Below, in pieces: positions 32,412-53,900 of a stretch of DNA of 64,000 nt. The position numbers and the translations under genes were made by a program. The DNA is taken from contig NZ_SHKK01000001.1 of assembly GCF_004217135.1 (NCBI RefSeq), positions 2,976,001-3,040,000 of the forward strand, read 5' to 3'. This stretch comes from Micromonospora violae (GTDB taxonomy: Bacteria > Actinomycetota > Actinomycetes > Mycobacteriales > Micromonosporaceae). Positions within the stretch are counted from its first letter, which is position 1. Each line of letters starts with the position of its first letter. The notes beneath the pieces are model-generated. The model searched no databases and was not told where the DNA came from. It saw only the letters and a program-made list of their open reading frames with translations.

Positions 32412-34538
32412 TCAGCGCGCCGGCTCGGCGGGGAGCCGATGCCGGCGAATCAACCGCTGCCCGATGAAGGTCCGCCAGACCCGGTCCGCGACGGTCGGTT
32501 CGACAATCCAGAGCCGACGCTGTGCCTCGGCGAGGGTGAGCGGCGCGCTGAAGAGATCCAGGAACAGCCGGCTGCTGCGGTTGAGGGCGAACACCTGACC
32601 GTCGACCCGGCGGAACAGGTGCCGGTCCGCCGGCAGGTCGCCCGGGGTGCCCTCCTGCTCGTCGGACCGGATCCGCCGGTACGCCTCCCAGACCTGCTCG
32701 TCGTCGCGGTCCACGAAGGCGCCGTTGGCGAGGAACTCGGTCTGGTCGTCGGTGTCGTGCCGGACCCGGTCGTTGGCGAGAACGCCGCGTACCGCCGTGC
32801 CGTACCGGTCGTGGTAGAAGAACGTGTGCGGGGTGTCGGTGCTGCCCAGCCACGGACGGTGGTAGTGCCCGGGGTTCAGGCCAGCCTTGGCCTGGGCGAT
32901 CTCGGCCTGCGCCGCCTCGGTCACCGGCTCGTCGTAGCGGAGCATCCGGACGATGTCCGACCCTTCCACCGGCCGCACGTTGGTGATGCCGAACCGGTCG
33001 GGTTCCTTGGCGACGATGGCGCCCGGGGTGAGCATGAAGTCACCGAGCCCGCCGAGGGTCCACAGGTCCGGGTTGTCGCGCAGGAAGGTGATGCTGTCCA
33101 GCGCCTCCTCGCGGGTCTCGGTGGGGAAACCGGTGAAGCCCATCATCTGCACACCGATGTTGGCCTTGGTCATCGCGGTCATGGTGCGGCGTACCTGCTC
33201 CGGCTTCGTGCCCTTGTCGATCAGGTCGAGGATGCGCTGGTTGCCGGACTCGAAGCCGACCGAGATGGCCACGCAGCCGCTGCGCCGCAGCAACTCGCAG
33301 CGCTCGTCCGACCAGTACTTCTCCAGCCGGATCTCGGCACCCCAGCGGAAGTCCAGCCCTCGCTCGACGACCTGCTCGGCGAAGCGCAGGATGGTCGCGG
33401 GAGCGAGCACGTCGACCGAGAAGTAGATGAACTTGGCGAACTTCGACAACTCGGTGACGTCCGCGATCATGGTGCTCACCGTGTCCTGCCGCCATGGGCT
33501 GGTGGGACCGTCGGTGTTCAGCCCGTAGTCGCAGAACGTGCACTTGTTCCAGTAGCAGCCCCGGGTCGGCGAGTAGTAGACGAACCGCTCCGGGCTGAGG
33601 TAGAGGTCCCAGGGCAGGCCGGAGAAGTCCGGCACCGGCACCTGCGCCAGGCGTTCGTAGCGCAGGGGCAGGTGACGCTGGCGGCCGTACTTGGGGTGCA
33701 GCCGGACGTTGGGGTGCCCGGCCGGGAGGGTGCCGGCCGCCACCGCGTCCAGGATCTCCGTGTACGCGCTCTCCCCCTCGCCGACCACGATGGCGTCGAA
33801 GTCGGCCAGCACCTGGAAGACGTACTCCGGTTTGCTGGCGCACTTCCAGACGTCGGAGATCTCCGTGCCGCCCGCGATGAGGAAGACGTCCGGGCAGGCC
33901 TGCCGGACGAGTCGGGCGATCCAGAGCGCGAACGGCAGCTGCCACTGGTAAGTGGCGCTGATGCCGATCACCTGGTGCCCACCGGCGGCCAGCCGGGGGA
34001 TCAGCACGTCCTCGTAGTACGGCAGGAAGGGCCGGTTGAGCCGAGCGAGCAGCGCCTCGTCGGTCAGCGCGGCCACCGAGCCGATCGAGATCATCGGCGG
34101 CGGGTGGAGCCGGAAGCCGGCGTGGAACTGCCCGGGGAACCCGACCGTGCCGAGCGCGTCCATCCACGAGATCACGCCGTCGACAGCGTCCTGGTAGTGC
34201 CGGTAGTCGTAGAACAGTGTCGGGTCCTGCAGGACCGCAACCGACCGACGTAGCCGCTCCGGATCCGGGTCGGGCAGGCCGAGTTGGTTCGCGCGGGCCA
34301 TCAGCGCGTCCGGGCCGCTGAGGTCGTCGATCGAGAGCCGGGACAGCTCCTTGCGAAGCCAGTCGTACGCCGATGGGGTGTACGAGTGGTGGAACGCCTC
34401 GATGTTGGCGTCGATGATCTCCGCCGGCCGGTGTCCCTGGGCCCGGGCGTACGAATCGAGGTAGTTCAGGGAGTGGTATCCCGAGGTGGGATCGGTCAGC
34501 GGGGGGTAGATCAGTGCCGCCTTCACCGTGCCGCTCAT
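32412..34538 (-). CDS. B12-binding radical SAM RiPP maturase
   Basis: 708 residues from ATG 34538 behind GAGGAGG. Residues 1-310 are a cobalamin-binding-like Rossmann region (GHQVIGISATYQWQ, FLIAGGTEISDV, VVGEGESAYTEI). The radical SAM core begins at Cys328/333/336 (GCYWNKCTFC, a CX4CX2C spacing) and runs to about 560. A C-terminal helical region with a PqqD-like or family-specific tail ends it. The family (RiPP maturation radical SAM type 1, as in polytheonamide PoyB/C) commonly C-methylates unactivated carbons. Its gene is last in the unit precursors-YcaO-TfuA-rSAM, ten bases after TfuA, so its likely substrate is the Val/Ile/Asn-rich precursor. Confidence 0.87.
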   Translation of the reverse strand: MSGTVKAALIYPPLTDPTSGYHSLNYLDSYARAQGHRPAEIIDANIEAFHHSYTPSAYDWLRKELSRLSIDDLSGPDALMARANQLGLPDPDPERLRRSVAVLQDPTLFYDYRHYQDAVDGVISWMDALGTVGFPGQFHAGFRLHPPPMISIGSVAALTDEALLARLNRPFLPYYEDVLIPRLAAGGHQVIGISATYQWQLPFALWIARLVRQACPDVFLIAGGTEISDVWKCASKPEYVFQVLADFDAIVVGEGESAYTEILDAVAAGTLPAGHPNVRLHPKYGRQRHLPLRYERLAQVPVPDFSGLPWDLYLSPERFVYYSPTRGCYWNKCTFCDYGLNTDGPTSPWRQDTVSTMIADVTELSKFAKFIYFSVDVLAPATILRFAEQVVERGLDFRWGAEIRLEKYWSDERCELLRRSGCVAISVGFESGNQRILDLIDKGTKPEQVRRTMTAMTKANIGVQMMGFTGFPTETREEALDSITFLRDNPDLWTLGGLGDFMLTPGAIVAKEPDRFGITNVRPVEGSDIVRMLRYDEPVTEAAQAEIAQAKAGLNPGHYHRPWLGSTDTPHTFFYHDRYGTAVRGVLANDRVRHDTDDQTEFLANGAFVDRDDEQVWEAYRRIRSDEQEGTPGDLPADRHLFRRVDGQVFALNRSSRLFLDLFSAPLTLAEAQRRLWIVEPTVADRVWRTFIGQRLIRRHRLPAEPAR

Positions 34539-34548
34539 CGATGCCTCC

Positions 34549-35946
34549 TCAGCCGACCCGGGCCGCTGAACCGGCCAGGGTGTCCTCCTGCGCTTGCGTG
34601 CCCACCGCTGGCAGTCGCGGGGCACCGAACGCCTTGACGTATGCGACCAACGGTTCGGCGGCGTACCGGAACGCCGCGAGGTCGACGAAGCCCCGGTCCC
34701 ACGCCGCCGCTTCCACCTCGTCGACGGCACAGCCCCACAGCCGGGCGAAGCACGCGTCGACGATCTCGGTGCGGAAGTGCAGCCGACCACCCGGGCGGCG
34801 ATTCCCCGTCGTACGCGGGACGAGCGTCTCGTTCAGCGACGCCGCCGTCGCCGCGACCTGCCGCGCCGCGGTGAGCATCGCGGGGGTACGCAACGGCGCC
34901 GCGACCATCCACAGCGCCAAACTGCGGTACGGCGTGGTGCCGAACGCCCGCACCAGCAGCCGCAGCACCGCCTCGCGGTCGTCGAGACCCCGTTCCCGGT
35001 CGGTCAGCCAGTCCCACCCGCTCCGCGGCGCACCGATCAGCCCGCGCCGACGGGCGACCTCGCCGGCGCGCTCCTCGACCATCGGGTCGGCGATGTCGAC
35101 CTCGGCCAGCCCGGCCAGCACCCCCCGCCGGTGCCAGGTCGCCGACTCGGGATGCAGCAGCATCAGCACCGCGGCGGCCTCCCGGTCGCTGGCCCAGTGC
35201 CCGCCGACCGACTCGCCGGCGAACCGCGAGCGCCAGCTGTCGAGGAAGCGGGTGTGCAGGTTGTCGATCGGCTGGTCACCGGCGTGCGCTGGGCACAGCT
35301 CCGGAGCGTTGTCCGCCGCCATCGACAGCAGCATCCGCGCGTCGGCGCCCTTGGTGTCGCAGGGGTCCTGCCGGTGCCAGGTCAGGAACCGGTCCACCAT
35401 GGCTGCCGCCTCGGGTGGTGCGCTGCGCTCCAGCGCCCGGTACGACCGCCGCCGGAACGGCAGGTCCCGGCCGATGGTCAGCAGCAGCGCAGCCTCGGCG
35501 TCGCTGAGCGCGCCGGCCGCGACGGCGCGGCGCAGCGCGACCCTGATGTTCACCAGGGGGACGCTCAAGGCGCGGTGGCCTTCCTCGGCGGGCCCGTGCA
35601 CGACGGCGACCTCGTCGTCGCCCGTGACGACCCCGTCGCGGTAGAGCTGGAACACCTCGCCCACACCACGCATACCGAACGGCCACAGCTCGGCGGCGCG
35701 CAGTGCGCCCATGCTGGCGGCCCCGGCCACGGTCACGCCACGGTCCAGCAGGTCGAGGATCTCCCGGTGGCGGACCGGCGGGTGTTGCAGGAAGAACCCG
35801 TCGATGACGAGGACCCGGTCGCCGGGGGCGACGTCGAGGCGGAGCAGGTCGCCGTGCGCGACGGGCGGCAGCACCACCGCGTCGGGCAGCAGCCGACCGA
35901 CCTCGTCGACCGGCAGGCTCGGACCGATGAAGACGACGTCAGTCAC
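34549..35946 (-). CDS. TfuA-like RiPP modification partner of YcaO
   Basis: 465 residues from a GTG that overlaps the end of the YcaO gene by eight bases (translational coupling). The N-terminal 200 residues are TfuA-like (VVFIGPSLP, VLVIDGFF, GAASMGALRAAEL, VGEVFQLYRDG). TfuA proteins partner YcaO enzymes that install backbone thioamides, as in thioviridamide-type peptides and methyl-coenzyme M reductase. The remaining 260 helical residues are longer than a minimal TfuA and of unknown role. Confidence 0.87.
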   Translation of the reverse strand: MTDVVFIGPSLPVDEVGRLLPDAVVLPPVAHGDLLRLDVAPGDRVLVIDGFFLQHPPVRHREILDLLDRGVTVAGAASMGALRAAELWPFGMRGVGEVFQLYRDGVVTGDDEVAVVHGPAEEGHRALSVPLVNIRVALRRAVAAGALSDAEAALLLTIGRDLPFRRRSYRALERSAPPEAAAMVDRFLTWHRQDPCDTKGADARMLLSMAADNAPELCPAHAGDQPIDNLHTRFLDSWRSRFAGESVGGHWASDREAAAVLMLLHPESATWHRRGVLAGLAEVDIADPMVEERAGEVARRRGLIGAPRSGWDWLTDRERGLDDREAVLRLLVRAFGTTPYRSLALWMVAAPLRTPAMLTAARQVAATAASLNETLVPRTTGNRRPGGRLHFRTEIVDACFARLWGCAVDEVEAAAWDRGFVDLAAFRYAAEPLVAYVKAFGAPRLPAVGTQAQEDTLAGSAARVG

Positions 35947-37105
35947 GGGGCACTCCCGGTCGGGTACTCAGGGCCCGCTCGTCGAACATCCGCAGGCCGG
36001 GGGCGAAAACCTTGCTCACCGGTATGCCGATGTCGTCGTGGGTCAGGTCGACGCTGAACGGCTCGACGCCGGTGACCCGCTGCACCCGCGACGCCAGTTC
36101 GCGCAGCACCTGGGTCACGTCCCCGACCGGTGGCGGGTCCCGGCGGACCGGCCGGACGGGCCGGTCGACGGTGGGCGGCGGCACCGGCGGACCGCCGACA
36201 TCCTGGTACGCGGTGGCGTCGATGTCGTCCCGGGCTCCGGAGACCATGACCAGCCGCGATTGCGCTGCCTCCGCCATGGCGCGACCGACGGCGATCTCCG
36301 GGTCCAGGTGGCAGCCGAAGCCGCCGAAGGTGACCGGCAGGTCCTCCGACCAGATCGAGGCGGCGTAGCAGGGTACGTCGACGGCGTTGGTGATGTCGCA
36401 GACCTCCACCCAGCAACCGGCCCGCAGCAGTGCGTCGTGCACCGTGCGGGTCATCGCGTTGGTGGCGGTGCCCGGGTCGGCGTAGGTGCGCTCGGCCAGC
36501 GGTGCGGTGCAGTACGGGGCGATGCAGTCGCGTTCGACGACCTCCAGCAGAGCGTGCAGGCTGGCCTCGGCGAAGGTGTTCCCGGTGGCCAGCCCGTTGC
36601 TGCTGGGGGTGAACAGAGCGCGGTCCCAGCCACGCCGGATGGTGAAATCGAGTTCGATGGTGGCGCGGGGCACCAGGCAACCTGTGCCGGTCACCAGCCC
36701 ACGGCCAGCCACCCAGTCGAGCTCGACGGCAGGGGTCAGGGGAGACCGTTCCGCCAGGTGCAGCCACCGGACGTCGTAGGGCAGGTCGAGCGCCTCGGCC
36801 GGGGACCGGACGACGGTCCCCGGCCGGAGGTTCTCGGCATGCCAGGACTCGATGCTCTCCATGACCGCGCTGACCCGGGCCTGCATCGCCGTGGCGCCGG
36901 TGCCGACGCTCACCGCCATGGTGGCTCCCACCGGCCGGTAGGCGACGTGCACCGGTAGGCCGATCTCGTCGAGCCGGGTGATGTCGGCGACCCGGGTGAT
37001 CCGGAACCGGTCGAGCAGGTGTCCGACCCGCTCCCAGGTCTGCTCCACGGTGGCCGTCCGGTAGGTGCCGGATCGGAAGGCGATGGTCTCGGTCGTGTCA
37101 GTCAT
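35939..37105 (-). CDS. Stand-alone YcaO (TfuA-associated)
   Basis: 388 residues consisting of a single YcaO domain. ATP-site motifs are present: AVMESIESW (about 75), SLHALLEVVERD and AEAAQSRL. YcaO enzymes activate a backbone amide with ATP; with TfuA they usually make thioamides rather than azolines. It lacks the leader-binding domain found in the cluster's other YcaO, so leader recognition must come from elsewhere. It starts 27 bases after the stop of the Cys-free precursor. Confidence 0.9.
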   Translation of the reverse strand: MTDTTETIAFRSGTYRTATVEQTWERVGHLLDRFRITRVADITRLDEIGLPVHVAYRPVGATMAVSVGTGATAMQARVSAVMESIESWHAENLRPGTVVRSPAEALDLPYDVRWLHLAERSPLTPAVELDWVAGRGLVTGTGCLVPRATIELDFTIRRGWDRALFTPSSNGLATGNTFAEASLHALLEVVERDCIAPYCTAPLAERTYADPGTATNAMTRTVHDALLRAGCWVEVCDITNAVDVPCYAASIWSEDLPVTFGGFGCHLDPEIAVGRAMAEAAQSRLVMVSGARDDIDATAYQDVGGPPVPPPTVDRPVRPVRRDPPPVGDVTQVLRELASRVQRVTGVEPFSVDLTHDDIGIPVSKVFAPGLRMFDERALSTRPGVPRD

Positions 37106-37132
37106 CGAGGCTCCCGGCGGGGGGTGGGGAAC

Positions 37133-37507
37133 TCAGAGGATGAGGACGGCGATGATGTTGACGTTGTTGTCGGCGATGGGGGCCACGCCGCCGGCGACCG
37201 TCTCCAGCTCGGCCTCGGTGAGCTCGTTGAGGTCGACCAGCGGCACCTCGGGCACGTGCAGGATGTGCAGGCCGGGCGTGCCGGCCCAGTCGGCGACGAT
37301 CTGGTCCTTGGTGTAGAGCGTGGCGGGCTGGGCGCGGTCGACCTCGACCCGGGCTCCGGGGGTGACCGGCAGGCCGGCCGCGGTCGCGTAGCCGGTCGGG
37401 TCGGCGAGCAGGCGCTGCAGTTCCTCGTCGCTGCGCCACACTGCGGTGACCAGTTCCGAGTATTTGGTCACGAACCTCGCGCCATATTCCTGTTCGTCGT
37501 TGCTCAT
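37133..37507 (-). CDS. NHLP-type RiPP precursor A, core without Cys, Ser or Thr
   Basis: 124 residues from ATG 37507, behind GAAAGGA; an upstream in-frame extension has no ribosome site. The leader (about 107 residues) matches nitrile-hydratase-alpha-like (NHLP) leaders: LQRLLADPTGYATAAGLPV, then VPLVDLNELTEAELETVAGG. After the double-Gly cleavage site the core is VAPIADNNVNIIAVLIL. It has no residue that can form azolines or lanthionines, but many Val/Ile/Asn carbons as in proteusin (polytheonamide) cores. It lies directly upstream of YcaO, TfuA and the radical SAM enzyme. Confidence 0.85.
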   Translation of the reverse strand: MSNDEQEYGARFVTKYSELVTAVWRSDEELQRLLADPTGYATAAGLPVTPGARVEVDRAQPATLYTKDQIVADWAGTPGLHILHVPEVPLVDLNELTEAELETVAGGVAPIADNNVNIIAVLIL

Positions 37508-37562
37508 CGTTCGGTCCTTTCCTCGGGTGGCTGTAAGACGGGGTGTGAGCGCCGTGGCGAGA

Positions 37563-37592
37563 ACGCTACGAAGATCGAGCTTCGACAATCAA
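37563..37592 (-). promoter_or_regulatory. Candidate internal promoter for precursor A
   Basis: Leftward -35 TTGATT (37587-37592) and -10 TAGCGT (37563-37568) are 18 bases apart. A CGAAG-N6-CTTCG dyad (37569-37584, within the spacer) could be an operator. Confidence 0.4.
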
Positions 37593-37617
37593 CGATTTCG
37601 GCTGACTGCCATCAGAA

Positions 37618-37645
37618 TCTGCCGCGCCGACCAATGGGCGGCAGA
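37618..37645 (-). terminator. Hairpin between precursors B and A
   Basis: An 8-bp stem TCTGCCGC/GCGGCAGA with a 12-base loop, starting just after the stop of precursor B. There is no U-tract, so it is probably a partial terminator or a stabilising 3' end that gives more B than downstream mRNA. Confidence 0.45.
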
Positions 37646-37653
37646 CTTCGGTG

Positions 37654-38016
37654 TCAGGTGCAGCAGCACGGGCAGCAGCAGGCGCAGCTGGGGTCCAGCC
37701 CGGCGACGACGCTGTCCAGTTCGTCCTCGGCCAATTCCGCCTGAGCCACCGGCAGCAGCGACGGCACGAAGAGCACGAACGTGCCGGTGCTGCCGGCCTG
37801 TTGCCAGGACTCGATCTGCACCTCCAGGTCCGGATCGGCGTCGGTGACGTCCCGGACGACCCGGACCTGCACGTCCTCGGACAGCTGGAGCCCGTAGCCG
37901 GCGAGGAAGCCGCGCGGGTCCCGGTCGAGCGCCTGTTCCTTGGCCGGGTCGGCCCAGACGTCGGCGACCAGCCGGCTGTACGCGGCCACGAAGACCGCTC
38001 GATCGACAGGTGTCAC
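37654..38016 (-). CDS. NHLP-type RiPP precursor B, Cys-rich core
   Basis: 120 residues from GTG 38016 behind GAAGGGAG. The leader of about 106 residues has the same NHLP plan as precursor A (RDPRGFLAGYGLQL, VQVRVVRD, AELAEDELDSVVAG). The core is LDPSCACCCPCCCT: seven Cys, one Ser and one Thr in 14 residues, a strong substrate for azoline/thiazole formation. It is the first gene of the leftward precursor unit and is divergent from the MerR gene. The leader-binding YcaO fusion and SagB-type dehydrogenase of this cluster are the natural modifying enzymes. Confidence 0.88.
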   Translation of the reverse strand: MTPVDRAVFVAAYSRLVADVWADPAKEQALDRDPRGFLAGYGLQLSEDVQVRVVRDVTDADPDLEVQIESWQQAGSTGTFVLFVPSLLPVAQAELAEDELDSVVAGLDPSCACCCPCCCT

Positions 38017-38373
38017 ACCCTGCTCCCTTCGATGGTCGACCGCCCCGGGGCGGCGACAGGCAGCGCGGGAGGTTCCGGGCCGCCGGTTTCGTTTCATCGT
38101 GGGTCACCGGTGGATCCGGTCCGCCCGGAGAGCGGGAATTTCATCGAATGTGGCCGCGAAAAGGTCGCGCTGCGGCGAAAGTCGGGTAATTGGGAATCAG
38201 CGACTTGCGGCGGATGGTGATCCTAATGATTGTCACCACATTGGACAAGTAGTAATTCCTCGCCTGTTACCCGCCCGGTGCCCAGCCTTACGCTGCGATC
38301 GGCGGACCGCCCAGCGTGACAGCGGTTCGACGGGGTTGTCGTGTTCCGTCACCGAGTGCTGCCGGAGGCCACC
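38017..38373. other. 357-bp divergent control region of the RiPP cluster
   Basis: Contains the leftward precursor promoter and dyad near 38230 and about 200 bases of untranslated leader. I see no small ORF with a ribosome site and no recognised riboswitch. Confidence 0.55.
38220..38248 (-). promoter_or_regulatory. Precursor promoter with MerR-like dyad
   Basis: Leftward -35 TTGTCC (38243-38248) and -10 TAGGAT (38220-38225), 17-base spacer. An inverted repeat TTGTC-N9-GACAA (38230-38248) lies across the spacer, where MerR proteins bind. On the other strand TTGTCA (38230-38235) and TAATTC, 17 bases apart, could drive the MerR gene. The leader to precursor B would be about 197 nt. Confidence 0.6.
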
Positions 38374-39120
38374 GTGACCATCGACGAGGTGACGACGACG
38401 CCCGGCGGCCCGGTCGGGTACAGCGTGGAGGAGCTCGCCCGCAAGGTGGGGATGTCGCCGCGCAACATCCGAGCCCACCAGGCCCGCCGTTTGCTGCCCC
38501 CACCGGTGCGGCACGGTCGGGCCGCGCTCTATGACGACTCCCATGTCCGCCGACTGGACGCGATCCTCGCCCTGCAACGACAGGGCTTCAACCTGGTGTC
38601 CATCGAGGCGATGCTCGGGGTCCGGGCCAGTGACGAGGCGCCCGACGGGCTCACCGCGATGCTGCAACGCCTGACCGCCGACCGTCCCGCGCTGGCCCAC
38701 GCGCTGACCCGGCACGGCGTGATCGGCCGGACCACCGACGGCACCGTCCGCACCGTCCGGCCCCGCCCGCTGCGCGCCGCCCTGGACCTGCATCGGGTCC
38801 GAGTGGGTACGGTGCCGGCCCTGCAAACCCTCAGCGAGGTGCTGGACAGCCTCCGGCCGGTCGCCGACGAGCTGGTCGCCGCCGTCACCGCCCGGCTGCT
38901 GACCCTCGCCCCGGAGCTGGTACGCAGCGACGCCCGGTCGTCCTGGGCCGATCTCGACCGGGAAACCCTGTTGCTGACCCAGGGCGTGGTCAACGTGCTC
39001 ACCGAGGCGTTCCGGCTCGCCGTGGAGAACCAGTCGGAGGCGCACATCGCCGAGCTGCTGGAGAACCACCTCGACGCGGACGTGTGCCTGGAGGACAGCA
39101 CTGTCATCGACATCGGCTGA
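38374..39120 (+). CDS. MerR family regulator of the RiPP cluster
   Basis: 248 residues from GTG 38374, chosen because GGAGG (38364-38368) is five bases upstream; an upstream GTG at 38341 has no such site. An N-terminal MerR winged helix (YSVEELARKVGMSPRNIRAH, then RLDAILALQRQGFNLVSIE) precedes an effector region of about 170 residues that is longer than in metal sensors and resembles ligand-binding MerR proteins. It is divergent from the precursors, and its stop is seven bases from the convergent ABC transporter stop. Likely controls precursor transcription, perhaps in response to product. Confidence 0.85.
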   Translation: MTIDEVTTTPGGPVGYSVEELARKVGMSPRNIRAHQARRLLPPPVRHGRAALYDDSHVRRLDAILALQRQGFNLVSIEAMLGVRASDEAPDGLTAMLQRLTADRPALAHALTRHGVIGRTTDGTVRTVRPRPLRAALDLHRVRVGTVPALQTLSEVLDSLRPVADELVAAVTARLLTLAPELVRSDARSSWADLDRETLLLTQGVVNVLTEAFRLAVENQSEAHIAELLENHLDADVCLEDSTVIDIG

Positions 39121-39127
39121 CCGGCTG

Positions 39128-42100: not shown

Positions 42101-42160
42101 GCCGTCCGAGCAGAAGCCGATCAGGCCGCCGGCCGACGGATCCTCCACCGCGCCACCCAT
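39128..42160 (-). CDS. NHLP-type RiPP exporter ABC transporter (permease-ATPase)
   Basis: 1010 residues, ATG behind GAGGAGA. The N-terminal region of about 400 residues is specific to NHLM-type systems, with a cyclic-nucleotide-binding-like segment and no C39 peptidase motif. Six membrane helices (about 430-700) follow, then the ATPase domain with Walker A GPSGCGKST, signature LSVGQRQRV and Walker B RIIFLDEATSALD. Paired with the peptidase-bearing transporter just upstream (24-bp gap), it probably forms a heterodimeric exporter for the processed peptides. Confidence 0.9.
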   Translation of the reverse strand: MGGAVEDPSAGGLIGFCSDGVRQVCRLDGPAAGWLVTGGEADLFAVRRAGISPSRRHHVARLPAGGLVPTSTAIGAWQLILVPLPGTELRGLSRRDLSVLERHVRLGRVADEGASLRARAAAVELVAAVDRVLVTVADALRRGQAPRQASTLRGREIISLAQGSALTSTGGAWWLRSAGGQLRRNDGGPAEMSGERELLLVAERDWVVAESPCAVESHGSWDLLVNGQLRSAVDQHVARLLRMVETRIEEADAALLSAVRRRRETDAAMLAAAARRSIGVIGAGGAVPVPDDEAGFDRYGRAASVVRVVTEGMGSPINEPADRSRAPLDDRAAVHAVTRASSLFLREVRLPERWWRRDLGPLVGWRAGDDPERPVAVPLMFRRGRYHQVDPDTRAYASIDATAAATFAAEATEVQAPLPPAARMRHLLRAGLVGASRDVRGLVFAAICVALLGLGVPLATGEVLGQLARQGEVTGLVGFLALMLSAAVVAGLVGVVQNLRLLRLDGRMQSGAQLAIWDRLMRLPARFFAGRSSGEIANSMLGISFVGESLSALLPQLVTAAATVAVTLGMLLVVEPVLGLWGAGIVAVTMLTFGGFAVLIVRQQRSALPAEHRAAAMTNQLLGGIVKIKLAAAETRAHARWSEVTATARAALQRVRQSQAGLVAFGTVLPIAGQLVLFAVLMGPLAGRVAPADFFILNVGFAMLLGALLVLVSAGVEVIAAVPRLGSLREILRADPEARPDRVDPGELRGEIALHRLTFAYQPDDPPVLTDIDLHVRPGEFVAIVGPSGCGKSTLLRLLLGFERQQQGAVLYDGQDLSELDVHAVRRQCGVVLQDGQLFAGSVRDNICGAGSFPLDQVWEAARMAGLADDLEALPMGMSTMVPFGGGTLSVGQRQRVLIARALAPLPRIIFLDEATSALDNRTQEVVSRSTAALAATRVVIAHRLSTVRAADTIVVLDAGRIVQRGTFDELMNQPEGLFHRLARRQLLTEPERSDTVPENQRADGQPATS

Positions 42161-42184
42161 CAGCGTCTCCTCGGATCGTCGTGG

Positions 42185-44368
42185 TCAGTGGTCCCGGACC
42201 AGGCGCGCGTACGCCCCGTCCTGAGCGACCAAGTGCTCGTGGGTGCCACGCTCCACCTCCCGACCGCCGTCCAGCACGACGATCAGGTCGCAGTCGCGGA
42301 CCGTGGACAGGCGGTGGGCCACGATCAGGCAGGTCGCGCCCCGCCGGCGCAGGTGCCTGTCGATCCGGCGTTCGGTCTCGGCGTCCAGCGCGCTGGTGGC
42401 CTCGTCCAGCACCAGCACCCGGGGGTTGCGCACGAGCGCTCGGGCGATCTCCAGCCGTTGCCGCTGCCCTCCGGAGAAGTTGCGGGCGTTCTCCCGCACC
42501 GGGCTGCCGAGGCCACCTGGGCGGGCCGCGACCTCGTCGTAGAGGCACGCGTCGGTCAGCGCGGCGACGACGTCCTCATCGGCGACCGTGAGGTCCCACA
42601 TGGTGACGTTGTCCCGCACCGTCCCCTCGAACAGCCGTTGGTCCTGGTCCACCATCGCGACGGTGGCCGCCCAGAGGCCGTCGTCGGCCGCGACCCGCTC
42701 AAGGCCGTCCACGGTGACCCGTCCGGTCCAGGGACGGTAGAGCCCGGCGACCAGCCGACCAACCGTCGACTTGCCACTGCCCGACCGCCCGACGAGCGCC
42801 ACCCGGGCACCCGGCGGCAGGTCCAGGCTGAAGTTCTCCAGCAGCGGACGGCCCAACGGGTTGTAACCGAAGGTGACCTCCTCGATGCGCAGATGCCCCT
42901 CCATCGGTGCCACCGGGCGGGCGGATCGGTCCTGGGCCGAGGGCAGTGGGTACCGCTCCACGTCGCGCAGCCGGTTGAGGTCGGCGCTCATGTCCTGCAA
43001 CCGCGAACCCAGCGCGGTCAGATTGCCCAACGGACGGTTCATGGCGGCCGCCAGGCTCTGCATGCCGACCAGCACGCCGACGCTCATCGCCTCTGCCACG
43101 ACCTGTCGGCTGCCCAGCCCCAGCAGCACCGCTGTGGTCGCCGAGGCGAGCAGCGCCGGCAGGACCGACAGCACCGCGGTGGGCACCCCCAGCCGCTGCT
43201 GCCGGGTGGCGACGGTGGCATGGCGCGCGGCGAACCGGGCCACCGCGCGCTCCTCCTCCCCGCCGGCCTTCACCGTCTCGATCATCTGAACCGTGGTGTA
43301 GACGGTCGTCACCAACTTGCTGCGATCTGCCTGAAGGCCGGCGACAGCGGTGGACCGGGTCGACGCGACATAGCGCAGCACGCTGACGTTCAGCCCGGCG
43401 AGGACCACCGCGCACAGCCCGAGCAGCAGGTCGTACTGGCAGAGCAGAGCCCCGTACGCCAGCACCAGGCCGGTGTCCACCACAGTGGTGGCCGTCCGGC
43501 GGGTGAGCACCTCGGCGACCACCTCGTTGCCCCGGACCCGCTGGCTGAGGTCGGCGGCCTGCCGCTGGTCGAAGAAGGTCGGCGGCAGCCGCAGCAGATG
43601 TCGGAAGAACCGGGCGGCGCTGGAGAGGGCGAGCGCCGTCTCCGCGCGTACGGTCAGGCGTTGCTGAAGCAGGCTGGCCAGGAAGGTCAGCACGGTGGCC
43701 ACCGCCACCGCCGCCACCAGGCCGGCGAACGCGGCCCGATCCTCCTGCAGCAGCACCCGGTCGACGAAGACCTTGGCCATCACCGGGATGGTCAGACCGA
43801 CCACGGCGATCAGCAGGCCGAGCAGCAACATCTGCGCGATCGCCGAACCCGGGCCGCGCCACCGCTCGGCCAGCGCCCGCACCAGCCGGTAGCGGGTGCC
43901 GCCGGGTCGGAACTCGGGGCCGGGCTCCATGGTGAGCACGATGCCGGTGAAGGCGCCGTCGAACTCCTCCCAGCTCACCGCGCGGGGACCGGTGGCCGGA
44001 TCGTTGATGAAGACCTTACGGCCGAGCCCTTCCAGCACCACGAAGTGCTCGAACCGCCAGAACAGCACCGCCGGCAGCGCCACGGTGGCCAGGCCGGCCA
44101 GGTCCATCTGGAAACCCTTGGCCACCATCCCGTACCGGCGGGCACCCTTGAGCACGGTGGCCGCGGTGGAGCCGTCCCGGCTGACGCCGCACACCCGGCG
44201 CAGCTCCTCCAGGGGCACGTGCCGACCGTGGTGCGCGAGCAGGATGCCCAACGCGGCGGCACCGCACTCCACCGCCTCCATCTGGATCAGGGTGGGGGTA
44301 CGGACCCGTCGACGCCGGATCCTGGGCAGCTCCGGCGCTGCGCTGGCGGCGGTCGTCGGCGCGCTCAT
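42185..44368 (-). CDS. C39-peptidase-containing ABC transporter (NHLP type)
   Basis: 727 residues. The ATG at 44368 overlaps the HlyD stop (ATGA). An N-terminal C39 peptidase has Cys35 (MEAVECGAAAL), His108 (FEHFVVLEG) and Asp123 (INDPATG), all intact, so it should cut leaders after Gly-Gly/Ala-Gly motifs. Six membrane helices follow, then the ATPase domain (GRSGSGKST; FSGGQRQRLEIARAL; VLVLDEATSALD). The cleavage sites predicted in both precursors (VAGG, VVAG) suit it, so one protease may serve both. Confidence 0.92.
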   Translation of the reverse strand: MSAPTTAASAAPELPRIRRRRVRTPTLIQMEAVECGAAALGILLAHHGRHVPLEELRRVCGVSRDGSTAATVLKGARRYGMVAKGFQMDLAGLATVALPAVLFWRFEHFVVLEGLGRKVFINDPATGPRAVSWEEFDGAFTGIVLTMEPGPEFRPGGTRYRLVRALAERWRGPGSAIAQMLLLGLLIAVVGLTIPVMAKVFVDRVLLQEDRAAFAGLVAAVAVATVLTFLASLLQQRLTVRAETALALSSAARFFRHLLRLPPTFFDQRQAADLSQRVRGNEVVAEVLTRRTATTVVDTGLVLAYGALLCQYDLLLGLCAVVLAGLNVSVLRYVASTRSTAVAGLQADRSKLVTTVYTTVQMIETVKAGGEEERAVARFAARHATVATRQQRLGVPTAVLSVLPALLASATTAVLLGLGSRQVVAEAMSVGVLVGMQSLAAAMNRPLGNLTALGSRLQDMSADLNRLRDVERYPLPSAQDRSARPVAPMEGHLRIEEVTFGYNPLGRPLLENFSLDLPPGARVALVGRSGSGKSTVGRLVAGLYRPWTGRVTVDGLERVAADDGLWAATVAMVDQDQRLFEGTVRDNVTMWDLTVADEDVVAALTDACLYDEVAARPGGLGSPVRENARNFSGGQRQRLEIARALVRNPRVLVLDEATSALDAETERRIDRHLRRRGATCLIVAHRLSTVRDCDLIVVLDGGREVERGTHEHLVAQDGAYARLVRDH

Positions 44369-45174
44369 CGCCGCAGCAACCAGTCGATCGGGTGTTCCCG
44401 GTCCACTGTGAACCACGCGGTGACCTCGCTGGCCGAGTTGAGCTGGAACGGCGGCGGGGACTTGGTCCAGCGCAGACCGCCCGGGGCGGCCGGGTCGGGC
44501 TCCAGGGCCACCGTCACCCGCACCACGCTGCCCCGGGCGAGCAGCCGCCGGACGTCCGGCCCGGTGCCCAGGAAGGCGCGCAGCGAGGCCTCGGTCTCCG
44601 GGAAGGCGCCGACCGTGGTGACCTGGCCGGCCAGGGTGCCGAACACGTTGCGCGGCGCGGCGGCGGCGGCCACCTCGACGGACACGCCGGGTTGCAGCAG
44701 TGGGGCGGCGACGGCGGGCGCGTAGACGACGGCCTGCAACGCGTCGCCTGCGGTGTCGAGCCGTTCCAGGTCGGCCAGGTGTGTCCCCGGGGTGACGATC
44801 TCACCTTCCGAGACCAGCCAGGCGACGACGTACGCGTCACCCGGCGCGGTCTCCACCCGCACCTTGCCGTCCGTGGTGCGCAGGCTGTAGAGGGGCATGC
44901 CCTTCGGCACCCGCTGGTGCGGTGACGCCCACACCTTGGTGACCTGACCGGCGTCGAGCGCGTCGAGCGCGGAGATCCCGTTCGAGTGGATCAGCACCCC
45001 GGCCGCCTCGACGGTCCGGGGCACCACCGTACGCACCGACCAGACCCCCGCGGCGACCACGACGATGACCAGCGCGGTGGTGGCCAGCCAGTTCGGCACG
45101 GTGGTCAGCCGGACCGCCCGGTCCAGTTGCTCGGGCGCCTCCAACTGGCGCAGCGCCTGCCGTCGGAACTTCAT
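44365..45174 (-). CDS. HlyD-like NHLM secretion protein
   Basis: 269 residues from ATG 45174, overlapping the SagB stop by ATGA, and overlapping the next start at its own end. One N-terminal membrane helix (ATTALVIVVVAAGVWSV) and a beta-barrel/lipoyl-like periplasmic-adaptor body follow, as in membrane fusion proteins of NHLM bacteriocin systems. In a Gram-positive it would extend the exporter through the wall. Four-base overlaps on both sides show tight coupling to SagB and the peptidase transporter. Confidence 0.87.
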   Translation of the reverse strand: MKFRRQALRQLEAPEQLDRAVRLTTVPNWLATTALVIVVVAAGVWSVRTVVPRTVEAAGVLIHSNGISALDALDAGQVTKVWASPHQRVPKGMPLYSLRTTDGKVRVETAPGDAYVVAWLVSEGEIVTPGTHLADLERLDTAGDALQAVVYAPAVAAPLLQPGVSVEVAAAAAPRNVFGTLAGQVTTVGAFPETEASLRAFLGTGPDVRRLLARGSVVRVTVALEPDPAAPGGLRWTKSPPPFQLNSASEVTAWFTVDREHPIDWLLRR

Positions 45175-46679
45175 GGCCGGCTCCGCGCCGCGTCCGGGCC
45201 GGTGGCTCGGCACGAGCCGAGCAGGAAGTCGGCCACGCTCGGCTCGACCAGCGGGTCGAGCCCGGACAGCTCGGCGAAGGCCTGGGAGTCCCCGGCTCCG
45301 AGTGCACACGGTGCCAACCCCATGGCGGTGGCCACAAGGTACATCTGCTGGGTCAGCACACCCGCGTCCTTGAGAATCATGGCGTAGCTCATCCCTTCGT
45401 ACTTCCACATGAGCCGCTGGACCCGGGCGGTGACCACCAGGACCGTCTGCGGCGGCCGAGGTAGCGCGCCGGACGCCCGGGCGTACGCCAGCAGCCGGTC
45501 GGCGGCCGCTCCCCAGGCGGCGACCGGCTCCAGCCGGTGCCCGACCGGGTCGTAGTGGTAGAGCCCCGGATCGAGCCCGGCGCAGCGCGCGACCAGTGGA
45601 TAAATCTCCAGCTCGTAGACGCCGCCGCCGCCCGGGTAGGGCCGGTGGCCGACCTCCTGCCCGCCGGCCTCGCCGACGGCGGTGGTGTGCTGCGACCGGT
45701 AGAGGAATTCCGCCAGCCGGTCCAGGGGCAGCGGCGCCGCGTCGTCGTGGTCGCGCACGCTGCGCCGGTCCGCGACGACCTGGCTGAACGAGGGGTCCGC
45801 CTTGGCGATCGGCGCCAGGTCCGGCAGTGGCAGTTCGACCGCCCGGCTCCCGTCGTACGGGCGGCGCAGCGGTTGGGGGGCGAAGCGCTCCCGCATCCGG
45901 TAGGTGCCGCCCACCGGCAGCGCGTGCCGGCCGGCGCGGGAGCGGTGGTGCAGCCGCAACTCCTCCGGCGACCAGTAGGCCAGCGGCGCCTCGTCGCACT
46001 CCGCCTCGAACTCGGCGTCGGTGACCAGGACCCGGGCGGTGGCCAGCTCGTCGAGCACCCGTCCGGCGACGTCCAGCGGCACGCCGAGGGTGCGGGCCAC
46101 CGCGTCGGGTCCGACGCCCGGCACGGCGGCGGCCAGCACCGCACCGAGGGCGGCGTCGGCGCACCCGACGACGAGGGTGCTCAGCGGCGACGCGGCCACC
46201 AGCATGCCCCGTTCGTGCTGAAGGGTGGCGAAGCGGGAGAGCCGGTAGCGGACCCCGGGGGTGTGCAGGCGAGTCTCCGGCAGACTGCCCCGGCCCAGGC
46301 CGGTGGGCACCAGGTCGAGCAGTGGCCGATCGTCGACCTGGACGCGGCGCTCCAGCCAGGAGTGGGCGAGCAGCCGGCGCAGCAGCAACTGCGCGGGCAA
46401 CACCCGGTTCTCCCCCTCCAGGCCGCTGATCAGCCGACCGACCTCGACGTCGTTGACCCAGTCGGCGGCGAGCCGCAGCAGCAGCGCCCGCCGGCCCATG
46501 CCCGGCTGCTCCAGGGTGAGCTGGAAGCGGGTCTGCCGCAGCGTCAGCGCGCCGTCCTCACCGAGCCGCAGCTCCGCGTCACGGCGCAGCCGGTACGACT
46601 CCTGAATCGGCGGACCGCCGACGGAGCCGCTCACGACGGTCGCCGACCGGCCGGGTCCACCACGGTGGTCATCCCCCAC
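45171..46679 (-). CDS. SagB-type nitroreductase-fold peptide dehydrogenase
   Basis: 502 residues. An N-terminal domain of about 250 residues (winged-helix/leader-interaction type) precedes the FMN-binding nitroreductase domain (RRSVRDHDDAAPLPLDRLAEFLY; GGGGVYELEIYPLV; VTARVQRLMWKYEGMSYAMILKDAG). SagB enzymes oxidise azolines to thiazoles or oxazoles, which fits the Cys-rich precursor B and makes no sense for precursor A. GTG 46679 starts 28 bases after the YcaO fusion; its ribosome site is crowded, so the start is less certain. Confidence 0.87.
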   Translation of the reverse strand: MGDDHRGGPGRSATVVSGSVGGPPIQESYRLRRDAELRLGEDGALTLRQTRFQLTLEQPGMGRRALLLRLAADWVNDVEVGRLISGLEGENRVLPAQLLLRRLLAHSWLERRVQVDDRPLLDLVPTGLGRGSLPETRLHTPGVRYRLSRFATLQHERGMLVAASPLSTLVVGCADAALGAVLAAAVPGVGPDAVARTLGVPLDVAGRVLDELATARVLVTDAEFEAECDEAPLAYWSPEELRLHHRSRAGRHALPVGGTYRMRERFAPQPLRRPYDGSRAVELPLPDLAPIAKADPSFSQVVADRRSVRDHDDAAPLPLDRLAEFLYRSQHTTAVGEAGGQEVGHRPYPGGGGVYELEIYPLVARCAGLDPGLYHYDPVGHRLEPVAAWGAAADRLLAYARASGALPRPPQTVLVVTARVQRLMWKYEGMSYAMILKDAGVLTQQMYLVATAMGLAPCALGAGDSQAFAELSGLDPLVEPSVADFLLGSCRATGPDAARSRP

Positions 46680-46707
46680 ATCCTTCCCACGGTTCCGGGA
46701 TCGCCGG

Positions 46708-48984
46708 CTAGAAGAAGACGTTCAGCGGGTTGGCCGACGTCTCGTCGACGGCCAACGGGCTGCGGCCGAGGTGAGCCGGCACGTCCCACAGCCGGCCGGG
46801 ACCGAGCCGGCGCCAGAAGTGCCGCAGTCCCGGCACGACGACTTTCACCACCGCCAGGTCGACATCCGGACGGGACTGGTCGACGACGATCACCTCCAGG
46901 CCAGCACGCTCCGCCCGACGTACGCATCGACGCACGTCATCCCCGACGTCGCCGGTGGTCAGTGCCGGGTGGTCCGCCACGGTACGTGGCGGCCGGCTGG
47001 GATCCGGGGCCAGCCACTGCTGGTCGGCCACCCGCACGGTGCCGAACCAGCGCGCGGTGTCCGGGTCGTCGACGCCGTACCGGTTGCGGGTGGAGGCGGG
47101 CCCGGCGACGGCGGGCAGGAACTGATTCACCTCGGTGAGCGCCCGGGTCAGCGCGACCCGCGCGTCCAGGTGCGCGCCGAAGCCGACCAGGACGTCCTCC
47201 GGCCCGCCGTCGACCCGACGGGACACCGCGGCGAACGTGGGTACGCCCAGGTCGGCGGTCAGGTCGAGGGCCCACAGTTCGCGGCGCAGCGCGGTGGCGT
47301 GGTGGTCGACGCAGGCGGCCATCCACGGGTCGGCGAACGAGGCGAGCTCCACGCCAGGTATCCGGGATCGGTGGTACCACCACAGGGCCACGCTGTCGCG
47401 CTCCACGAGTTCGCAGAAGCCTTGCAGGATCGCCTCGGACAGGGTGTTGCCGGCCGCGCAGCCGTTCGAGTCGGCCGAGGACACTGCCAGCCCGGTCAGC
47501 TCCGGATGCCCATACCAGCAGTGCGCGGCGGGCAGCTCGCGCGGTGTCTCCCGGGTCAGCGACCAACCCGTGGTCCAGTCCAGCTCCACCTCGTCGGGCA
47601 GTGGGTGGGGAATGCGGTGCAGGTGGCCCAGGTCGCGGTTGAGCCGGTCCCGGTCGGCGTACTGGCGTTCCGAGAACAGCAGCAGCTCACGCAGGTGCAC
47701 CGCGCGCTCCGGGCCCAACTGCTGGTAGGACGCCCGGTGCACCGGGCGGTCGCCACGCCACACCCCGCAGTAGCGCTCCACCGCCTCCCCGACCGCGCTC
47801 ATCCGGGCCTGCAGGTCGGTCCGGCCCTTGCCGCCGCTCTGCCCGCGCAGATTGCGGCGCAATGCGGCGAGCTGGCGGGGCTGGGCGAAGTTGTGCCCGG
47901 CCGAGTAGGTGTGGGTGACCCCGTTGTCGGTCGCCTCCAGGGAGGTCAGCCTGCTCACCACACCCAGGTACCGGCTGACGTGGTGGGCGAGCGCGGCGTA
48001 CGCCTCGGCGGGTTCCCTGGTGCGGGCGTCCCCGGCCCGACTGGGTTGGGTGCCGCTCGGTGGCAGGTCGATCCGTGGCTCGGCCTTGCGGACGAGGTCC
48101 GGGTCGCCGCAGGCGGGGCACTGCGGCTGGCGTACCAGTTGGTGGCTCTCGGTGCTCAGGTCCCGGGTGTCCAGGGCGACCAGCCGCCCGGTGAGTCGGG
48201 GCGACGCGCCGCGGACGGCGAGCACGGCGAGCTCGGCGGCGAGCAGCCCGGCGACCATGGTGGCGAGTCCGGGCAGGACCGCGCGGCCGGGCTGGGGCAG
48301 CGGAGCGGCCAGGTCCTGCCCGTCGAGGAAGGCGTTCACCTGTTCGTTCTCCTGCCAACGTTGCCGCAGGCAGGCCCAGCAGCCGGTGCGGCCCGGCACG
48401 AGGTGGGGGCCGAGGAAGACGACGTTGCCGTGTGGCCGGGCCAGGGTCCACGCGCGACCGGCGGCGAGCTGCCGGTCGTTGATCAGCGCCAGCCGAGGGT
48501 CGAGCATCGACGACGGCAGCACCAGCACCTGGGCGGTGGCCGGGCCGGGGTCCGGTGCGTCCGGCCCGACCACTGTCGGGGTGAGCCCGAGGGCGCGCAG
48601 CGCGTCGGCGGTCTCGACCACCCGGGGCGCGCCGAGGTCCACGATGGTGACCGGCCCCCCGGCCATCCACCGGCGGCCGGCGTCGGGCGGGACACCCCGG
48701 GCGTCCCAGCCTGCGGCTTCGGCTGCCGAGGTGTGCGCCGGGCCGGACACCAGAAGACCGTGGTCGCGCAGCCGGGCGAGGGCCGCGGCGACGGCGGCGA
48801 CCGGGTGTCGGGTGGCCAGCCGAGCTACCACGTCGGCCAGCGACGCGTCCCCGTCGAGCTGGTCGGCCAGGTCCGCGGCGACCGGGTCGTCGATGAGGAG
48901 GCTGCGGGTCTCCCCCAACACCACCAGCGGGCCGTCAGGCAGCCGCACCGGCACGTAGTCCGTTCGGAAGCGCGGACGCCACAT
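46708..48984 (-). CDS. Fused leader-binding domain and YcaO cyclodehydratase
   Basis: 758 residues, ATG behind GGGAGGAA. The N-terminal half (about 1-330) is an E1/ThiF-like leader-binding domain with zinc-type cysteines (CWACLRQRW and CPACGD). The C-terminal half is a YcaO domain (SAVGEAVERYCG; ILQGFCELVERDS; RALTEVNQF). This is the C-D fusion of TOMM clusters, which converts Cys/Ser/Thr to azolines using ATP. Most azoline-forming YcaOs end in a Pro-rich PxPxP; this one ends NPLNVFF, which may alter activity. Likely acts on precursor B with the SagB dehydrogenase next door. Confidence 0.9.
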   Translation of the reverse strand: MWRPRFRTDYVPVRLPDGPLVVLGETRSLLIDDPVAADLADQLDGDASLADVVARLATRHPVAAVAAALARLRDHGLLVSGPAHTSAAEAAGWDARGVPPDAGRRWMAGGPVTIVDLGAPRVVETADALRALGLTPTVVGPDAPDPGPATAQVLVLPSSMLDPRLALINDRQLAAGRAWTLARPHGNVVFLGPHLVPGRTGCWACLRQRWQENEQVNAFLDGQDLAAPLPQPGRAVLPGLATMVAGLLAAELAVLAVRGASPRLTGRLVALDTRDLSTESHQLVRQPQCPACGDPDLVRKAEPRIDLPPSGTQPSRAGDARTREPAEAYAALAHHVSRYLGVVSRLTSLEATDNGVTHTYSAGHNFAQPRQLAALRRNLRGQSGGKGRTDLQARMSAVGEAVERYCGVWRGDRPVHRASYQQLGPERAVHLRELLLFSERQYADRDRLNRDLGHLHRIPHPLPDEVELDWTTGWSLTRETPRELPAAHCWYGHPELTGLAVSSADSNGCAAGNTLSEAILQGFCELVERDSVALWWYHRSRIPGVELASFADPWMAACVDHHATALRRELWALDLTADLGVPTFAAVSRRVDGGPEDVLVGFGAHLDARVALTRALTEVNQFLPAVAGPASTRNRYGVDDPDTARWFGTVRVADQQWLAPDPSRPPRTVADHPALTTGDVGDDVRRCVRRAERAGLEVIVVDQSRPDVDLAVVKVVVPGLRHFWRRLGPGRLWDVPAHLGRSPLAVDETSANPLNVFF

Positions 48985-49122
48985 GGGTTCCTCCCGAGCC
49001 TGGTGGCCGGACCGACGGGTCCCGCCCTGATCACGGCTGCTGCCATCGTCGCGGTCCGGTGCGCCCCGATCCGAGGGATGCCATGGGTTTCTGCCGTCGC
49101 CGTGGAAGCTGCGCGGCAGGGG

Positions 49123-50172
49123 TCAGTCGACGGTGACGGTCAGGGCGGTGTCGTTGAGCCCCAGCACCGATGCGCCGACGGTCTGCGCCGGCACGAGCAG
49201 CACGAAGGTCTCCACCCGGGTGACCCGGATCGACTTTCCGGTGGCCGCCGTGCGGTGACCGGTGGCGATCAGGTCCGGGCTCTGTGGCTCCAGTCGGACG
49301 GTGGCGGGGCCGCCCGGCGCCGGGCGCAGGGTGTCGGTGGCGTGGATCGTCAGAAAGGTGAGCGTGCCGGTGGGCACCGCGACCGCGCAGTCGGACCATT
49401 CCGCCTTGTCCATCGTCCGCTGCACGGCCGCGCCGACACCGGAGAGCTGCTGCCCATAGACCTCCCAACCGCCGGCGAACTGGCCGTCGAGCAGCGGGCT
49501 CGACGTGACGAGGGACCGGTTGCCCGTCGTGGACCCGATGCTGCGGGCGAACACCTCGGCGGCAAGGGCACGGCGGCTGGTCTCGTCCAGGGCGGTGCCG
49601 CCGGCGGTGGCCGCCTGCCCGTCGATGCTCCTGGCCACCACCAGCGAAGGTTGGGTCACCTGGACGTTGTGGCTGAGCTTCCACTGGCCGTCGGCGCCGC
49701 GCACGAACTGGCTGACGTCGGTGGGTGCCAGCTCCGATCCGGTCAGCCGGAGAGTGGCGGTGGCGAGGAAACAGGACGGTTCACCAGGCGGCACCGCGAA
49801 GACCGGGTTGATGTGCTGGAAGGACGGCTGTGGACGCTGGTTGTACTCGGCCCGACGGATTGCGGCGATGCTGAGGTCCAGCGAGGGCGAAACCTCCTGG
49901 GCCCGCAGCGCCTCGACGTCACCGGCCACCGAGGCGGCCGAGTCGGCCTGGTCGAAGGCGGTGAGCACCAGCGCGGCCCGGTCCCGACCGAACGCGGCCG
50001 AACCGTGGGGCGCCGGGGTCGCCGCGTCCACCGGCTCGCCACCGCAGCCAGTCAGCACGAGCAGCGCCAGCGTGGCGGCGGCGAACGGCAGCGCCGGCAC
50101 CGGCACCGGCACCGGCACCGGCACCGGCACGGCGAGGGTACGCGGGCTCCTGACGGACCTTCTGCGCAGCAT
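49123..50172 (-). CDS. Secreted lipoprotein of the RiPP cluster
   Basis: About 349 residues from ATG 50172, with GGAGG five bases upstream; several upstream in-frame starts lack a site. A basic N-terminus, then six Val-Pro units from a hexanucleotide repeat, a hydrophobic stretch and a lipobox (VLTGC, Cys about 43). The mature part is unrecognised: mixed alpha/beta with no catalytic motif. It heads the leftward modification/export unit, so an immunity, lipid-anchored chaperone or export-assist role is possible, but none is shown. Confidence 0.78.
   Translation of the reverse strand: MLRRRSVRSPRTLAVPVPVPVPVPVPALPFAAATLALLVLTGCGGEPVDAATPAPHGSAAFGRDRAALVLTAFDQADSAASVAGDVEALRAQEVSPSLDLSIAAIRRAEYNQRPQPSFQHINPVFAVPPGEPSCFLATATLRLTGSELAPTDVSQFVRGADGQWKLSHNVQVTQPSLVVARSIDGQAATAGGTALDETSRRALAAEVFARSIGSTTGNRSLVTSSPLLDGQFAGGWEVYGQQLSGVGAAVQRTMDKAEWSDCAVAVPTGTLTFLTIHATDTLRPAPGGPATVRLEPQSPDLIATGHRTAATGKSIRVTRVETFVLLVPAQTVGASVLGLNDTALTVTVD
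50096..50130 (-). repeat. (GGCACC)n hexanucleotide repeat in a signal peptide
   Basis: Almost six uninterrupted GGCACC units encode the Val-Pro string in the lipoprotein signal region. Slippage would add or remove whole VP pairs without shifting the frame. Confidence 0.85.
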
Positions 50173-53206: not shown

Positions 53207-53252
53207 CACACAGACCAGACGCCTTCCGCCACACTCAAGGGGAATTGGTCGC

Positions 53253-53870: not shown

Positions 53871-53900
53871 TCGGCGAGCTCCTATGTGAAAGGAATGCTC

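Follow-up and report, generated by a model that had tools for sequence, protein, structure and literature searches.

Two YcaO systems and two paralogous precursors at one conserved locus of Micromonospora violae, with probably two peptide products

Does a gene cluster that encodes two precursor peptides and two YcaO enzymes of different predicted chemistry make one peptide product or two? The question is raised by positions 32412-50172 of a 64,000-nucleotide stretch of Micromonospora violae DNA (the window), in which an earlier reading of the letters (the original prediction) had described a single cluster for a ribosomally synthesized and post-translationally modified peptide (RiPP). All the parts listed there are present: two precursor genes, here called preA and preB; an azole set, consisting of a leader-binding/YcaO fusion (the predicted cyclodehydratase) and a SagB dehydrogenase; a thioamide set, consisting of TfuA and a second YcaO; a B12-binding radical S-adenosylmethionine (SAM) protein; a MerR-type regulator; and one exporter. 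Judging from sequence comparisons, the two precursors are probably paralogues with unlike cores that are served by two separate modification sets and a shared export machinery, most likely to give two products.

In the window, the preA leader ends in VAGG followed by VAPIADNNVNIIAVLIL, a core without Cys, Ser or Thr, and the preB leader in VVAG followed by LDPSCACCCPCCCT; the Cys/Ser/Thr-rich core that serves as a criterion for thiazole/oxazole-modified microcins (TOMMs) is found in preB and not in preA. The description of the precursors as dissimilar therefore holds for the cores and not for the leaders, which are recognisable paralogues: each query retrieves the other precursor, with ~35% identity in Actinoplanes. 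At E<=0.01 the leader_NHLP model matches 21 of 22 preB and 13 of 16 preA members, in support of the predicted nitrile hydratase leader peptide (NHLP) type, but the window members score only 28.7 (preB) and 19.2 bits (preA) against the NCBI curated cut-off of 50.9. Pfam NHase_alpha matches six of the 22 preB and none of the 16 preA members, and TIGR04351 (putative TOMM peptide) matches 21 of the 22 preB members at E<=0.01, the window preB lying below cut-off at 18.4 bits. A class IIb bacteriocin was considered for preA on the strength of TIGR03949 (22.3 bits, cut-off 21.5) and rejected because the match spans just residues 94-112, namely the close of the leader, the GG site and the beginning of the core. 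Three genomes (G026, G050 and G063; loci L081, L087 and L093) carry two different preA-type precursors next to a single preB.

The azole set is assigned by close family matches. The cyclodehydratase aligns with LynD across residues 20-754, nearly its full length (E 8.8e-149), and contains both the leader-binding C domain and the YcaO D domain expected of TOMM systems, while the window SagB carries WKYEG, a Lys-Tyr motif of the kind reported in the available text of PMC11055893 to be important in TOMM dehydrogenases. In a further genome (G495; L143 and L144, ~6.1-15.1 kb of the joined stretch), MerR, SagB, HlyD, ABC1 and ABC2 genes accompany an NHLP-like precursor ending in SHPALSDIAR, with no YcaO or TfuA match within 32 kb, that is, a SagB and exporter set without a nearby cyclodehydratase.

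The thioamide set is told apart by its genes and model scores. The tfuA gene adjoins its partner ycaO, the two reading frames sharing eight bases, and this second YcaO fits the McrA thioamidation model TIGR03266 (181.8 bits) better than the SagD azole model (108.1 bits), both below cut-off; these scores disfavour the alternative assignment of both YcaOs to the azole type. TfuA bears a C-terminal extension (34549-35298) of similar size in several actinobacterial homologues and not in Azospirillum-type ones; a leader-binding fold was considered for this extension, but although a structure model of the whole protein is of fair quality (mean predicted local distance difference test score, pLDDT, 83), none of the fold matches listed for it extends past residue 232. 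The radical SAM protein, whose gene probably starts at 34538 and not at 34790, has a CxxxCxxC motif read from the letters, a PF02310 (B12-binding) match of 30.4 bits that falls just below the cut-off of 32.1, and similarity to TokK (7kdx, E 5.3e-5), and it is 61-65% identical in ten clusters outside Micromonospora. Its score with the RiPP C-methyltransferase family TIGR03975 (75.6 bits) falls short of the cut-off of 281.85, as does that with its best family model, PhpK, of the corresponding cut-off; given its radical SAM and B12-type domains, it may nevertheless work like a RiPP C-methyltransferase. A strand-strand-helix-helix-helix succession at residues 639-693 of a poor structure model (mean pLDDT 55.5) gives only a hint of a PqqD-like domain.

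The linkage of the two halves is conserved. Among 354 Micromonosporaceae genomes, the preA model matched 39 and the preB model 42, of which 37 are full-length matches, one is partial (G025), one is a cross-match of preB on a preA (G006) and three are weak leader-only matches within other azole clusters (G283, G321 and G183). Counting G025 by its partial match, preB is found in 38 of the 39 preA genomes. All 37 genomes with full-length preB have preA adjacent (27 in the genus of the window, counting the window's genome itself, nine in g4 and one in g14), and both precursors and both YcaOs occur at one locus in 37 of the 39 preA genomes, from three genera (g1, g4 and g14); in all 37 the two YcaO genes share a contig, with domain starts 4.6-11.9 kb apart. 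TfuA is present in 38 of the 39, the exception being G025, a 220-contig draft in which neither YcaO nor TfuA was seen and whose locus looks like a remnant. A sequence search returned 12 Micromonospora loci and one Actinoplanes locus with both halves, several of them in genomes already matched by the models, so that the two counts are not additive. This conservation supports the view of a single cluster that unites two chemistries with one exporter, and homologous loci do not always carry a single half, the pattern that the original prediction had named as the mark of a chance neighbour pair.

In the protein database, 117 proteins matched the preA profile at E<=0.01; the last 15 of these by score (P0014 and P0175-P0188) are more distant NHLP-type proteins and were left out of the core count. 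The preB search gave 69 proteins at E<=10, none weaker than 4.4e-11. That the pair occurs outside Micromonosporaceae too is suggested by Jatrophihabitans, whose preA (P0100) and preB (P0031) both lie on contigs of length 71694. Of 394 genomes sampled across the class, the preB model matched 14: two of the window's genus, seven at E 1e-23 or better (G440, G474, G495, G620, G644, G650 and G729) and five at E 7e-7 or worse (G433, G626, G666, G710 and G732). The preA model matched ten, namely the same two genomes, the same seven places and G376 with a 20-bit match, and no preA proper was found outside Micromonosporaceae in this sample. Farther afield, loci from Granulosicoccus, Myxococcaceae and Ruegeria (L041, L042 and L044-L048) combine a second YcaO-like match with a SagB-like gene and are 26-30% related to the YcaO studied here, and a Polyangium metagenome genome (L028) holds TfuA, its YcaO, and SagB-like and cyclodehydratase-like matches within 13 kb, possibly an independent combination.

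Gene order was compared in 14 loci, ten of them outside Micromonospora and four within it (G052 and G289 reach a contig end). All 14 share the block preB-preA-YcaO-TfuA-radical SAM, and the cyclodehydratase-SagB-HlyD-ABC block lies upstream in the same direction in ten and is divergent in four (G047, G052, G054 and G073). In both arrangements the halves are interleaved, the gene for the azole substrate being grouped with those of the thioamide set and the gene for the azole enzyme with those for export, and the preservation of this interleaving through rearrangement argues for one integrated system. Two independent clusters, neighbours by chance and sharing nothing, would fit the observation that each half is found alone somewhere (in G440 and G006, described below), but 37 of 39 genomes from three genera keep both at one locus, in two interleaved arrangements with a single export set. 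We consider chance neighbourhood highly improbable; the count of 37 already brings it close to refuted.

The two cores evolve in opposite ways. ACCCPCC occurs in 67 of the 69 preB database homologues, which were found by similarity, the other two being an odd-framed and a truncated entry, and in all 22 aligned preB proteins, though identity to the window member drops to 49%. Because its Ala, Cys and Pro codons vary synonymously in 38 distinct genes from the loci, the core is held by selection on the protein; the invariance in this codon comparison is partly preset, as the search pattern asked for ACCCPCC[C/S]. That pattern was found in 59 of 63 stretches, all those expected to hold preB, the misses being G006, G283, G321 and G183. 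The motif is not invariant in more distant relatives, whose cores read NCCCCPCCCCT, NYCCCPCCCCT or SCCCCCSSPCCCCT. In preA the leader is conserved and the cores, mostly aliphatic, range from eight to ~22 residues and from GNNNINLYQSK to FVVIIIAIP; of the 83 that could be parsed, 51 contain N[V/I/L/F] and 28 lack Cys, Ser and Thr altogether, which rules out azole formation for those 28. This contrast, together with the MerR-type regulator gene divergent from the precursors, would suit a division of labour in which only the preA product is a weapon and the frozen preB polythiazole is a signal, a metal binder or an inducer for the thioamide product. A Gly motif that suits the C39 exporter ends both leaders, however, and we regard such a helper role for preB as rather improbable.

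Loci with a single half bear on which enzyme set serves which peptide. G006 has preA, TfuA and its YcaO; preB and the cyclodehydratase were both not found there, and the sole YcaO match in the genome is the TfuA partner. Its SagB motif, moreover, reads WRY, compared with WKY in 17 of 17 other aligned SagB proteins. Its preA is 54% identical to that of the window, compared with 44-47% for the ten other clusters outside Micromonospora; relative to those ten, its TfuA lies within range, its YcaO and radical SAM pieces just below, and its SagB, ABC1, HlyD and MerR further below. Conversely, the azole half can exist without TfuA, as in G440, a member of another family, where cyclodehydratase, SagB, HlyD, ABC1 and ABC2 accompany a precursor ending in NCCCCPCCCCT with no TfuA or radical SAM match within 31 kb, and in G729 and G644 (cyclodehydratase and SagB, with precursors ending in NYCCCPCCCCT) and G620 (cyclodehydratase and such a precursor). 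An azole-type locus in another family (G474) likewise holds a cyclodehydratase, SagB and a Cys-rich precursor.

These loci also weigh on the second of the two readings offered originally, that both chemistries act on one peptide. In that case preB would give an azole and thioamide product, as in the thioamidated thiopeptides saalfelduracin, thiopeptin and Sch 18640 covered in the available text of PMC8120280, preA would be a helper, and the location of preB within the block that also contains TfuA and its YcaO would fit. G440, however, pairs a preB-like Cys-rich precursor with the azole set alone, G006 keeps preA with TfuA-YcaO in the absence of preB, and the preA tails after the Gly motif are short and diverse, as in genuine cores. 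One doubly modified peptide thus appears improbable, and the 28 preA cores without Cys, Ser or Thr and G006 favour two chemistries on two peptides. The additional suggestion of shared leader recognition is not supported: the sole leader-binding domain found by a curated model is on the azole enzyme, and the thioamide half of G006 exists without it.

Several observations weigh against this assignment of two sets to two peptides. G006 is a single genome, with preA in one of the four genomes of its genus, and its cluster may be decaying, as the deposited sequence breaks the radical SAM frame once and the HlyD match extends over just 58 residues; it sits on long branches in the SagB and ABC1 trees, and loss of the azole half is not separable there from never having had it. 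It retains SagB (10092-11549 of L102), which a strict two-module system would not need; with its Lys-to-Arg change in the Lys-Tyr motif, this SagB could be a vestige or have a new role. In G474, a short radical SAM match (29%) adjoins the cyclodehydratase, which means that radical SAM genes are not tied to the thioamide half alone. Cys is present in 43 of the 83 parsed preA cores, on which azole chemistry could act, and the parsing itself covers 83 of 102 cores, the pattern having failed to place 19 and one parsed row (P0172) having an odd-framed tail. Finally, the TfuA-partner YcaO and the radical SAM enzyme both score under the curated family cut-offs.

From the established enzymology of these families, we infer the enzyme-substrate pairs, cleavage sites and products as follows: azole formation would occur on preB, thioamidation and C-methylation on preA, and export would be shared. 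The cyclodehydratase would bind the preB leader via its own leader-binding domain and convert the Cys (perhaps also Thr/Ser) residues of ACCCPCC[C/S] to thiazolines, for SagB to oxidise to a polythiazole. TfuA would help the second YcaO replace backbone carbonyl oxygen by sulfur in the aliphatic, often N[V/I]-bearing preA core. Methylation of unactivated carbons in the same core would fall to the radical SAM enzyme, the weakest step because the enzyme misses the RiPP cut-off. One C39 exporter would likely cut both leaders after the Gly motif and export both peptides. A tentative extension, for which the odds are clearly below even, is a two-component RiPP made from the paralogous precursors: an invariant polythiazole and a fast-evolving aliphatic peptide, thioamidated and C-methylated, would leave through the same transporter and act jointly on one target, which the constant partner would define while the variable one adjusts specificity.

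The features of the locus are collected in the table. Positions 49123-50340, read earlier as SagB, gave zero Pfam matches and are ruled out as such: the frame there is lipoprotein-like, and the SagB that had been called is present elsewhere in the cluster. A homologue of the lipoprotein-like gene occurs in all ten two-half clusters outside Micromonospora and in 13 of 14 two-half loci overall, the fourteenth being G289, whose contig starts within the cyclodehydratase gene; its product is a possible immunity or uptake protein. The LuxR-type/AAA regulator adjoins three of the ten clusters outside Micromonospora with both halves. In the window, a GH44 glycoside hydrolase with fn3 and cellulose-binding domains (53856-56174) adjoins the cluster.

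Table. Features of the cluster region and its flank (window positions; RBS, ribosome-binding site).
Feature	Position	Strand	Remarks
B12-binding radical SAM protein, predicted C-methyltransferase	32412..34538	-	708 aa; PF04055 54.4 bits
TfuA, predicted thioamidation partner	34549..35946	-	PF07812; C-terminal extension ~250 aa
TfuA-partner YcaO, predicted thioamide synthetase	35939..37105	-	PF02624 211.8 bits
preA, aliphatic-core precursor	37133..37507	-	124 aa; start and RBS read; homologues found
Predicted preA core VAPIADNNVNIIAVLIL	37136..37186	-	letters after GG motif; putative cleavage site
preB, Cys-rich precursor	37654..38016	-	120 aa; GTG start
Predicted preB core LDPSCACCCPCCCT	37657..37698	-	putative cleavage site
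MerR-type regulator, divergent	38374..39120	+	several MerR models, weak, all below cut-off
NHLP exporter subunit 2 (ABC permease/ATPase)	39128..42160	-	TIGR03797 690.4 bits, cut-off 709.4
NHLP exporter subunit 1 with C39 leader peptidase	42185..44416	-	TIGR03796 898.9 bits, over cut-off 853.3; PF03412
HlyD-type exporter adaptor	44365..45174	-	TIGR03794 124.3 bits, cut-off 156.2
SagB/ThcOx azoline dehydrogenase	45171..46679	-	TIGR03605 163.7 bits, over cut-off 78.4; PF22767 (ThcOx) over cut-off
Leader-binding/YcaO fusion, predicted azoline cyclodehydratase	46708..48984	-	TIGR03882 116.5 and TIGR03604 261.7 bits, both over cut-off
Lipoprotein-like protein	49123..50172	-	weak lipoprotein models below cut-off; lipobox-like LTGC read from letters
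Large LuxR-type regulator with AAA domain	50324..53305	-	start uncertain; PF13191, PF00196

If two sets do serve two peptides, one transporter and one locus would serve two YcaO chemistries on paralogous precursors, a clean natural test of substrate sorting between two YcaO enzymes, and a single locus may yield two dissimilar antibiotics or signals that form a matched pair. The freezing of the predicted polythiazole core speaks for a molecular target that is fixed, the variable partner preA offers a ready series of ~100 related natural precursors, and thioamides on peptides without Cys, Ser or Thr would usefully probe the substrate range of TfuA-YcaO.

Parts of this system have close counterparts in print. 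In its available text, the TOMM survey PMC4603692 describes NHLP azole clusters and suggests that tandem NHLP-Burk precursors form a two-peptide product. The present cluster resembles the NHLP/Nif11 azole clusters of that survey in its NHLP-type leader and its cyclodehydratase related to cyanobactin ones; unlike in NHLP-Burk, the core of the second precursor here often lacks Cys, Ser and Thr and has its own TfuA-YcaO and B12 radical SAM enzymes, and whereas NHLP cores are called hypervariable in the same text, the Cys-rich core here is frozen. From cyanobactin systems (LynD/TruD and ThcOx), whose enzymes resemble the cyclodehydratase along almost its entire sequence and also SagB, the cluster differs in its NHLP-type leader and C39 export, and no PatA/PatG-type protease was found among the proteins scanned. 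Proteusins, whose definition includes a PoyD-type radical SAM epimerase, share with it, in the polytheonamide type, an NHLP-like leader and a B12 radical SAM enzyme beside an aliphatic, Asn-bearing core; here, by contrast, the cores are short, thioamide and azole sets are present, and the single radical SAM protein among the scanned cluster proteins has a B12 domain, with no epimerase among them.

Thioamitides of the thioviridamide type are defined by enzymes for an aminovinyl-methylcysteine (AviMeCys) ring next to TfuA-YcaO. The tfuA gene adjoins ycaO here too, as it does in the thioviridamide, thiovarsolin and orphan-network clusters, but domains of the ring enzymes are not listed in the Pfam scan of 20 proteins of 28699-56174, which sets the locus apart from thioviridamide, and a second, azole-type YcaO and a Cys-rich second precursor distinguish it from TfuA-YcaO clusters generally. 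The literature searched, in its readable part (supplements were not), contained no description of two precursors with split chemistries, one constant and one variable, nor did a literature text search return the strings CACCCPCCC, CCCPCCCT or ACCCPCC. The original statement that no family with this set has been described is partly right, since two-YcaO TfuA clusters and TfuA-linked NHLP precursors are already in surveys (PMC8120280 and PMC6511847, as far as their available text goes). PMC6511847 contains a TfuA-linked actinobacterial Network 7 with nitrile hydratase-type precursors, which may include this cluster family and hold these loci. PMC8120280 covers thioamidated thiopeptides as well as TfuA clusters that include a second YcaO plus a dehydrogenase (nitroreductase) and, in Bradyrhizobium and Desulforegula, others that include B12 radical SAM genes; PMC10676384 notes a Nakamurella cluster with a second YcaO adjoining TfuA, again in the portions available. 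The clusters of PMC8120280 are like the present one in uniting azole and thioamide YcaOs; there, to judge from that text, the azole-bearing ones mostly have split lanthipeptide dehydratases and the additional YcaOs are interpreted as modifying the thioamidated peptide, whereas here there are two peptides and no dehydratase among the proteins scanned. The locus thus combines parts known in print, namely NHLP azole, TfuA-YcaO and two-YcaO clusters, and it is the pairing of a constant with a variable precursor that is unusual.

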